Of a stretch of DNA of 51,367 nt, positions 41,631 through 43,258 are shown piece after piece (positions within the stretch are counted from its first letter, which is position 1; each line of letters opens with the position of its first letter). The translations under genes and the position numbers were made by a program. The notes below the pieces were generated by a model. The model ran no database searches. It was not told the origin of the DNA and saw only the letters and a program-made list of their open reading frames with translations. The stretch is from Akkermansiaceae bacterium. Lineage in GTDB: Bacteria > Verrucomicrobiota > Verrucomicrobiia > Verrucomicrobiales > Akkermansiaceae. Location of the stretch: contig CANLKN010000015.1 of the NCBI GenBank assembly GCA_947491475.1, positions 1 through 51,367 on the forward strand, read 5' to 3'.

Positions 41631-42095
41631 ATGGAAAGCCATGACGTTCTGAAAAAGGCACTGCAAAAAACCACGCCCAAAGCGGTGGCGGCCAATCTGG
41701 GGGTGTCCCTATCGCTAGTTTACAAATGGGCGGAAAAGCCGGCTGATGACGCAGCGGGCAACAGGAATCCACTGGATCGCTTGCTGCAAATCATCGAGTT
41801 GAGCGGTGACAATGCAATCGTCGATTGGCTTTGCCTCAGGCAGGGCGGGTATTTTGTGAAAGACCCCGAAGTGAGCGGCATGCAGGTGGAACACGTGATG
41901 CCGGCCACCCAGGAGATGATCCGGCATTTCTCCGAATTGTTGAACCAAATCTCGGATGCGGCTGTGGACCACTCGGTGACGAAAGGCGAGGCGGACGATA
42001 TCCGCGAGACATGGGACAAGCTGAAAAGCCACGTCGAGGCCTTTGTCAGGGCTTGCGAAAAAGGCGACTTCCGAACGATGAAACGAATGCTCTGA
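41631..42095 (+). CDS. CII-like (Phage_CP76-type) helix-turn-helix protein
   Basis: 154 residues. The N-terminal HTH (VLKKALQKTTPKAVAANLGV, SLSLVYKWAEKP) is followed by NPLDRLLQIIELSGDNAIVD and WLCLRQGGYFV, the pattern of the phage regulatory protein CII/CP76 family. The rest (about 85-154) is helical (MIRHFSELLNQISDAAVDHS) and ends in a basic tail. No other phage genes are near, so it is more likely a chromosomal regulator. It precedes the eRF1-like gene by 68 bases on the same strand. Confidence 0.75.
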   Translation: MESHDVLKKALQKTTPKAVAANLGVSLSLVYKWAEKPADDAAGNRNPLDRLLQIIELSGDNAIVDWLCLRQGGYFVKDPEVSGMQVEHVMPATQEMIRHFSELLNQISDAAVDHSVTKGEADDIRETWDKLKSHVEAFVRACEKGDFRTMKRML

Positions 42096-42163: not shown

Positions 42164-43258
42164 ATGTCAGCCACAGCCAACTTGCCCACGCTTGGAAATT
42201 CGATGCAACAACTGCGTCGTCACATCTTGGCGCTTTCCACCTTGCCGGAGAACGATGCGCCGGTTCTGAGCGCCTACTTCGACTTGCGCCGCCCGGTTGA
42301 AATACTCCGTGCTGCTTTTGAAACCTGGTCCACTGCGGCGCGCAGCGCCCTGCCCAAGGCGCAGCGGCCGAGATTCGACGAGGCGAAGTCAGAACTCCGC
42401 GCGCTGCTCAAACAGGTTTGGCCCGAGGACATCCAAGGCCTTGCGGTATTTGCTCGCTGCGGAGAGCATCAGCTGTTCATGGCGCTGAAGTTCCGAGCGG
42501 CGCTGGAAACCCATTTCGAAGTCTCTGCGCGCCCGGCAATTTTTCCGCTGGTCCAGCTCAAGGACCGGTTTCACCGCTTCGTGCTGGTGATTTGTACTGA
42601 GGATACCGGGCGGATCATGGAATTGACGCTGGGGGCCGTGACCGAGGAAATCCTCACCACGCGGCCAGATCACGGGAGTCGCCTCGGCCGCCAGTTGAGT
42701 CGCGAACATTTCCATCACCGCCGCGAGGAGGACGCCCGCAGATTCGTGCGAGATCAGGTGCTCATTATCAGCAACCTGATGGCCCGGCGTGGACTCAACC
42801 ACCTGATTCTCGCCGGACATCCGCGCCATGTTTCACCGCTGCGGGAGCAACTGCCAAAGCATCTGCAATCACGCGTTGTCGGCTCGGTTTTCCATGCGCC
42901 TAACGGCCAAGACTACTCGCCGTTGCTCGATCAGGCCATCGACACGTTCATCGAGGCGGAACAGGAAGAAAGCCGCGGCGCGGTCGAGCGGCTGCACGAG
43001 CAGGTTCGCCGCCAGGGACTCGCCGTGGTGGGCATTCATGCCTGCCGCGAGGTGCTCGAGGCCGGGGCCGCTTCCCAGTTGGTGATTTCCGAAGAATTGC
43101 CGATACCCGACCGTGAGGAGTTGGTGCGGCTTGCGACGCAGCACGAAGTGCCAATTGAGGTCTGCGAGGGTGACGACCTGCTCCAAAGCCACGGAGGTGT
43201 GGGGTGCCTGCTTCGTTTCCGGATGGAATATCTCCACACGGCGATACCTGACGCCTGA
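42164..43258 (+). CDS. bacterial archaeo-eukaryotic release factor-like protein (baeRF)
   Basis: 364 residues with three eRF1-like parts. The first is an N-terminal domain (about 12-120, VLSAYFDLRRPVEILRAAFE). The second is a middle domain (about 135-240, RFVLVICTEDTGRIMEL), where GRQ (175-177, GSRLGRQLSREHFHH) stands in place of the peptidyl-hydrolysis GGQ loop. The third is an L7Ae-like C-terminal domain (about 255-360, LLDQAIDTFIEAEQEESRGA; GLAVVGIHACREVLEAGAAS). Families of this type are suspected to act in ribosome rescue or hibernation. The lost first Gly makes classical hydrolysis uncertain. Confidence 0.75.
   Translation: MSATANLPTLGNSMQQLRRHILALSTLPENDAPVLSAYFDLRRPVEILRAAFETWSTAARSALPKAQRPRFDEAKSELRALLKQVWPEDIQGLAVFARCGEHQLFMALKFRAALETHFEVSARPAIFPLVQLKDRFHRFVLVICTEDTGRIMELTLGAVTEEILTTRPDHGSRLGRQLSREHFHHRREEDARRFVRDQVLIISNLMARRGLNHLILAGHPRHVSPLREQLPKHLQSRVVGSVFHAPNGQDYSPLLDQAIDTFIEAEQEESRGAVERLHEQVRRQGLAVVGIHACREVLEAGAASQLVISEELPIPDREELVRLATQHEVPIEVCEGDDLLQSHGGVGCLLRFRMEYLHTAIPDA

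Follow-up and report, generated by a model that had tools for sequence, protein, structure and literature searches.

An eRF1-type protein of baeRF family 10 from an Akkermansiaceae bacterium carries a derived GRQ motif and is probably a non-hydrolytic ribosome-binding factor

The window (the whole 51,367-nucleotide stretch of Akkermansiaceae DNA analysed here) encodes a three-domain eRF1-type protein of baeRF family 10. The protein (364 aa; positions 42,164 to 43,258, + strand) was identified from Pfam, NCBIfam, PDB and Foldseek matches together with dN/dS estimates, and is probably a baeRF-clade factor that binds the ribosome and would occupy the A site without hydrolysing peptidyl-tRNA, in a Balon-like manner. 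The homology, the domain order, the missing GGQ and NIKS motifs, a basic helix and purifying selection were observed directly. The GRQ motif that the protein carries seems to have arisen late, within a single small lineage.

The open reading frame is real and under purifying selection. Its dN/dS was 0.145 against L020, the protein of an Akkermansiaceae MAG that is its nearest named relative (81% identity), and 0.143 against L003; these values are rough because dS was approximately 0.9 and 1.2, respectively. The N-terminal domain, of the decoding-site type and lacking NIKS, spans approximately residues 20-120 (42,221 to 42,523, + strand), its approximate borders being taken from an alignment of profile residues 24-310 with residues 6-294 of Rv2629 (8v9k). 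The middle domain, an RNase H-type domain equivalent to eRF1 domain 2, comprises residues 124-260 (42,533 to 42,943, + strand) and was matched by positions 1-140 of the 143 in PF18854. Within it, GRQ occupies residues 175-177 (42,686 to 42,694, + strand), in the loop before a long helix. The C-terminal domain (eRF1 domain 3, L7Ae-type) covers residues 272-354 (42,977 to 43,225, + strand) and aligned with positions 6-106 of PF03465; additional residues that Rv2629 and eRF1 have in this domain are missing from it. No RNA elements were detected in the window at gathering thresholds.

Assignment to family 10 was based on a match of residues 124-260 to the Pfam baeRF_family10 model (PF18854; E = 4.8e-19), at 69.5 bits against a curated cut-off of 27.1, which was also passed by all five other subfamily members scanned. 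The eRF1_3 model (PF03465; E = 8.9e-6) matched residues 272-354 with 26.6 bits, just over its cut-off of 25.8; among the window protein and the five relatives scanned, it exceeded this cut-off in the window protein only, two relatives scoring 22.5 and 22.6 and three having no listing. The NCBIfam models all scored below theirs: Rv2629_fam_RHF (residues 27-310, E = 1.8e-16) gave 60.3 bits against 320, MSMEG_1130_fam_RHF (residues 106-311, E = 5.6e-11) gave 42.1 against 480, and the pelota and aRF1_eRF1 models gave 11.9 against 177.65 and 27 against 234.7, respectively.

An alignment of 17 rows (A1) was built from the window protein and 16 of the 18 matches from other genomes (L003-L019 and L020); the alignment excludes L017, which covers just the C-terminal part (residues 241-358), and L019 (residues 108-354). 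When the A1 profile was compared with the PDB, the best sequence match was Pelota 3j15 (E = 6.9e-7), followed by the Balon structure 8v9j (MSMEG_1130; 9.9e-7), aRF1 4af1 (9.7e-6), Balon 8v9k (Rv2629; 6.5e-5), human eRF1 1dt9 (0.0018) and many other eRF1 chains. Since the Rv2629 alignment covers residues 24-310, the homology includes the N-terminal domain. AlphaFold2 models from a single sequence and from two sequences had mean pLDDT values of 44.1 and 45.6, too low for placement of the loop. In a Foldseek search with the two-sequence model, ranks 1-27 among the best 50 of 1002 matches were all eRF1, aRF1, Balon or Pelota chains, and the top match was Balon MSMEG_1130 (E = 1.6e-10, 384 alignment columns, TM approximately 0.24 with this weak model). 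Because the TM-scores of ranks 1-27 were low (0.17-0.28 by query length, with an rmsd of 12-23 Å), this result supports the domain order, not the geometry. Together with the two Pfam matches, these searches bore out the three-domain eRF1 layout that had been claimed for the protein.

The main rival to a Balon-like action is that of a Pelota/Dom34-like rescue factor, which would enter a stalled A site without hydrolysis and promote splitting of the ribosome or its hand-over to another rescue factor. It is the main rival because the residues missing from the C-terminal domain make its length Pelota-like: the segment 305-340 comprises 36 residues in every one of the 17 rows of A1, the domain being short as in Pelota, and the alignment of the profile with 3j15, its best match, runs through to the C-terminus with small gaps only. 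Rescue is also proposed as one baeRF role in the accessible text of Burroughs and Aravind (PMC6514570). The score with the pelota model lay far below its cut-off, however, while Balon 8v9j was nearly as good a match to the profile and Balon came top in the structure search; rescue was accordingly judged a minor possibility, and a non-hydrolytic Balon-like factor remains our preferred reading. As a separate observation on the C-terminal domain, Cys348 is invariant in the 17 rows, in a C-terminal GG-[VA]-GCLLR motif, and is replaced by Ala in the more distant L063.

The first-pass annotation had placed GRQ at the position of the GGQ motif of release factors. The triplet G175-R176-Q177 is indeed present, and conservation around it was assessed in A1. 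Position 175 is Gly in all 17 rows, position 176 is Arg in 15 and Gln in two, and position 177 is Glu in ten, Gln in five, Asp in one and Gly in one. Trp occupies position 178 in 12 rows and Leu in the other five, which are the five with Q177; Glu is found at position 181 in 16/17 and His at position 182 in 17/17. The commonest loop motif of the family is G-R-E-W-[STG]-R-E-H-[FY], and both L063 and the fragment L064, which lie outside the clade with Q177, likewise have GREW. The length of the loop is identical in all 17 rows, and no column between positions 170 and 184 contains more Gln than position 177. The profile pairs position 183 (Phe or Tyr) with residue 190 of human eRF1 in the 1dt9 row, in an alignment that is weak at its start. 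With the human GGQ at what we take to be residues 183-185, a gapless reading of this alignment would put GGQ on residues 176-178 (R-Q-L), with its Gln facing L178, the position that is Trp in 12 of the 17 rows. For Q177 to lie opposite the GGQ Gln, a one-residue gap would be needed in the weak alignment, which is conceivable. In the gapless register the proposed placement is thus off by one residue.

No GGQ was found in 16 of the 17 proteins, the window protein included, and NIKS was found in none of the 17. The exception, L013, has a GGQ at 171-173 (window numbering), upstream of the invariant G175 and in a part of the alignment that differs between rows; it looks fortuitous. A GxQ outside the loop occurred in 5/17 proteins, and therefore a lone GxQ means little. 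When a distant family-10 protein from Azospirillum was aligned with the profile, no Gln lay opposite positions 175-178.

The history of Q177 was examined in trees of 19 rows (A1 plus L019 and L063) that were built with and without the motif columns. In both cases the five Q177 rows and L019 formed one clade nested among proteins without Q177; its members are the window protein, L020, L003 and a lineage with GQQ-L (L018, L014 and L019). This clade had support of 100/98, and Q177 required one change compared with a shuffled mean of 5.3, with 0/500 shuffles as low, on trees that are midpoint-rooted and have long branches leading to L016 and to L018/L014/L019. Because Q177 arose once, in one nested clade, GRQ is a derived substitution, and its interpretation as a decayed GGQ was rejected. 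Nor was there support for GRQ as a conserved replacement of GGQ: in the gapless register it is displaced by one residue, and it arose by one derived change in a family whose motif is GRE-W.

These data bear on a second rival, a peptidyl-tRNA hydrolase that would use Q177 or another loop residue and be active in special conditions. In the accessible text of Burroughs and Aravind (PMC6514570), family 10 is named as a baeRF family whose loop Gln is well conserved and which might therefore be active; the same text describes narrow loop lengths for families that keep the Gln and loose ones for families that lack it. Given that pattern, the constant loop length of the 17 rows is evidence against a free, inactive loop, and the window clade does have a Gln two residues after the invariant Gly175. 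Against hydrolysis, Gln is present in just 5/17 rows, the others having Glu, Asp or Gly, and it has one origin, nested in proteins without it. Moreover, Q177 is one register off GGQ in the gapless reading, and the residue before it is Arg or Gln, not a tiny one. A well-conserved loop Gln, as described for a family 10 proposed to be competent, was not found in this subfamily: at none of positions 170-184 did a majority of the rows carry Gln. Hydrolysis by the window protein is considered unlikely, and a hydrolase of this conditional kind very doubtful. Still harder to credit is a reversal in this clade in which E177 to Q plus W178 to L turned a ribosome blocker whose loop had no Gln back into a peptidyl-tRNA hydrolase or releasing factor with a non-GGQ motif. 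If it were true that the GRQ clade releases peptide, it would put to the test how small a part of GGQ suffices for catalysis.

A-site blocking, in hibernation or shutdown, was the best reading when homology was used as the guide. Under starvation or stress, the eRF1-shaped protein would enter an empty A site with its N-terminal domain towards the decoding centre. The middle-domain loop (G-R-[E/Q]-[W/L]-x-R-E-H-[F/Y]) and the basic helix that follows would then rest on 23S rRNA close to the peptidyl-transferase centre, with no catalytic GGQ, and the outcome would be blocked translation with the ribosome kept intact. The helix has Lys or Arg in 15/17 rows at positions 180 and 187, in 13/17 at 186 and 192 and in 14/17 at 196; in the accessible text of Burroughs and Aravind 2019 (PMC6514570) such a helix is taken as a sign of contact with large-subunit rRNA. 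The window protein has both features of the baeRF clade, the three-domain aeRF1 architecture and the basic helix after the loop. By analogy with its relatives it may bind the ribosome and occupy the A site, and a role in stress, the timing of that role, its reversibility and its purpose may likewise be shared. Counted against a Balon-like reading were the absence of RaiA from the 20 neighbours scanned, the NCBIfam scores far below cut-off and the missing EF-Tu-hairpin insertion, as were an eRF1_3 cut-off that none of the five relatives scanned reached and the constant loop length. The earlier proposal of ribosome binding without hydrolysis, for example in hibernation, therefore stands in part: the eRF1-type architecture, the lack of GGQ and the Balon matches agree with it and hibernation is plausible, but GRQ is not supported as a conserved stand-in for GGQ. 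The genome also has three RF-1-type matches above cut-off elsewhere, and with bacterial factors of its own the eRF1-like protein need not be a termination factor.

The eRF1-like gene is patchily distributed, being found in 16/99 related genomes (its own included) and 2/20 genera. Across 387 genomes of the phylum, the A1 profile had matches in four, including its own genome, and one of these was a fragment. A search with PF18854 gave matches in 7/288 genomes, five of them above the cut-off, and in 8/14 control genomes, four of which were archaeal. No match was found in the phages database at E 0.01, and none was confirmed with the profile in viral_contigs. The plasmids database yielded one distant match, from Azospirillum (28.6% identity), which as a query retrieved Azospirillum only from the plasmids and one unrelated weak match from the solved structures. 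A phage or mobile origin of the gene was thus without support beyond one distant plasmid match. The Azospirillum protein (L074, 2875-4104) is the distant family-10 protein referred to above; it has two Cys-x-x-Cys pairs in its C-domain, and genes for a sigma factor, DnaJ, CbpM and a universal stress protein lie nearby on the plasmid.

The neighbourhoods of the eRF1-like gene had little in common between loci. In close relatives, it is adjoined by a bactofilin gene (L020, L043) or by an ABC ATPase gene on the opposite strand (L020, L042). The 20 of 34 immediate neighbours that were scanned for families had mixed functions (bactofilin, ABC ATPase, LpxB, Mg-chelatase of the ChlI type, Maf, SecD, MnhE, cyclophilin and others, with two lacking any family), and RaiA/HPF, Hsp20, DnaK/DnaJ, OsmC and sigma factors were absent from these 20. 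Two RaiA/HPF-type genes are present in the window's own genome, on other contigs. The same genome contains, on contig C24 (L065, approximately 1501-1678), the N-terminal stump of a second eRF1-like copy, with approximately 50 matching residues; it is closest to L009 (61% over 46 residues), had no further significant match in its 3.2-kb locus and is the remains of a lost paralogue. Another locus, L058 (6774-7124), retains only the C-terminal part (residues 241-357) inside a contig, the rest having no significant match in any frame, and is a truncated copy of the gene.

Upstream of the eRF1-like gene, positions 41,631 to 42,095 (+ strand) encode a CII-like (Phage_CP76) HTH regulator of 154 aa, identified by Pfam (E = 3.7e-7, 30.6 bits, curated cut-off 26) and by the PHROG 101 profile of CII-like activators (E = 1.5e-14). 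The first-pass annotation had suggested that this gene may control the eRF1-like gene, and it does end 68 bases before the eRF1-like start, on the same strand. No promoter- or terminator-like site was seen in the gap, and a shared transcript is therefore possible, although the scan is a weak one (promoter-like sites, 0 compared with 0.5 in shuffles). The wider distribution argued against a functional pair. The CII-like gene is far commoner, occurring in 60/99 related genomes (its own included) and 17/20 genera of the order, with at most one match per genome, compared with 16/99 genomes for the eRF1-like gene. The eRF1-like gene occurs in 15 other genomes, 11 of which possess the CII-like gene as well, and the two were adjacent in none: among the matches listed, they were on different contigs in nine and on one contig in two, separated by approximately 38 kb in G031 and 970 kb in G004. 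Of 16 loci examined in other genomes, 14 had at least 900 bases upstream of the eRF1-like gene, and the CII-like gene was there in none; these 14 represent ten of the 11 genomes. The remaining one is G036, where a contig end coincides with the start of the eRF1-like gene and the CII-like gene is on another contig, which had no eRF1-like match despite more than 3 kb available downstream. Conservation of the gene pair, which had been named as a check, was not borne out, and a conserved CII-like/baeRF pair was rejected for these genomes. That the regulator controls the eRF1-like gene is highly improbable; it appears to be beside it by chance, and its wide occurrence with no more than one match per genome suggests a regulator of phage type that has become a chromosomal gene.

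These results extend the baeRF and Balon-like proteins by a subfamily of patchy distribution from an Akkermansiaceae-type genus. They also advise caution: a GxQ in one sequence cannot be read as a relic of GGQ, since the relatives here have GRE-W and the Gln is new. Among the papers listed in a literature search covering few subscription journals, none dealt, by title and abstract opening, with this subfamily or with GRQ in baeRF proteins.

Compared with known systems, the window protein shares with baeRF family 10 (PF18854; PMC6514570) the middle domain, at 69.5 compared with 27.1 bits, and the three-domain layout; it differs in that Gln, well conserved in that family according to the accessible text, is absent at position 177 in 12/17 rows. 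Like aRF1/eRF1 it has the domain order, with eRF1 domain 3 just above cut-off, but it has neither GGQ nor NIKS and scored 27 bits against 234.7. It resembles Pelota/Dom34 in lacking GGQ and in its short C-terminal domain, but not in its score with the pelota model (11.9 against 177.65 bits). With Balon (MSMEG_1130 and Rv2629), as far as the accessible text of PMC10901736 describes it, the three domains in aeRF1 order and the absence of NIKS and GGQ are held in common, and Balon was the first-ranked structural match, with a weak model, in addition to the profile matches. In contrast, both NCBIfam cut-offs were missed (60.3 vs 320 and 42.1 vs 480), the C-domain insertion with the EF-Tu hairpin that this text describes appears from the sequence to be missing, and the linkage to RaiA or stress operons that is frequent for Balon was absent from the 20 of 34 neighbours scanned. 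Rv2629 has approximately 27 more residues between the aligned C-domain blocks, the second of which is weak (1.4 bits). An HP dipeptide, a possible counterpart of Balon's HP motif, is present at residues 102-103 in L020, L003 and L005 and absent from the window protein. Since the insertion is missing and the NCBIfam cut-offs were not reached, the window protein is not Balon in the strict sense; it belongs to the known baeRF family 10/Balon-like proteins, and its motif is a local derived change.
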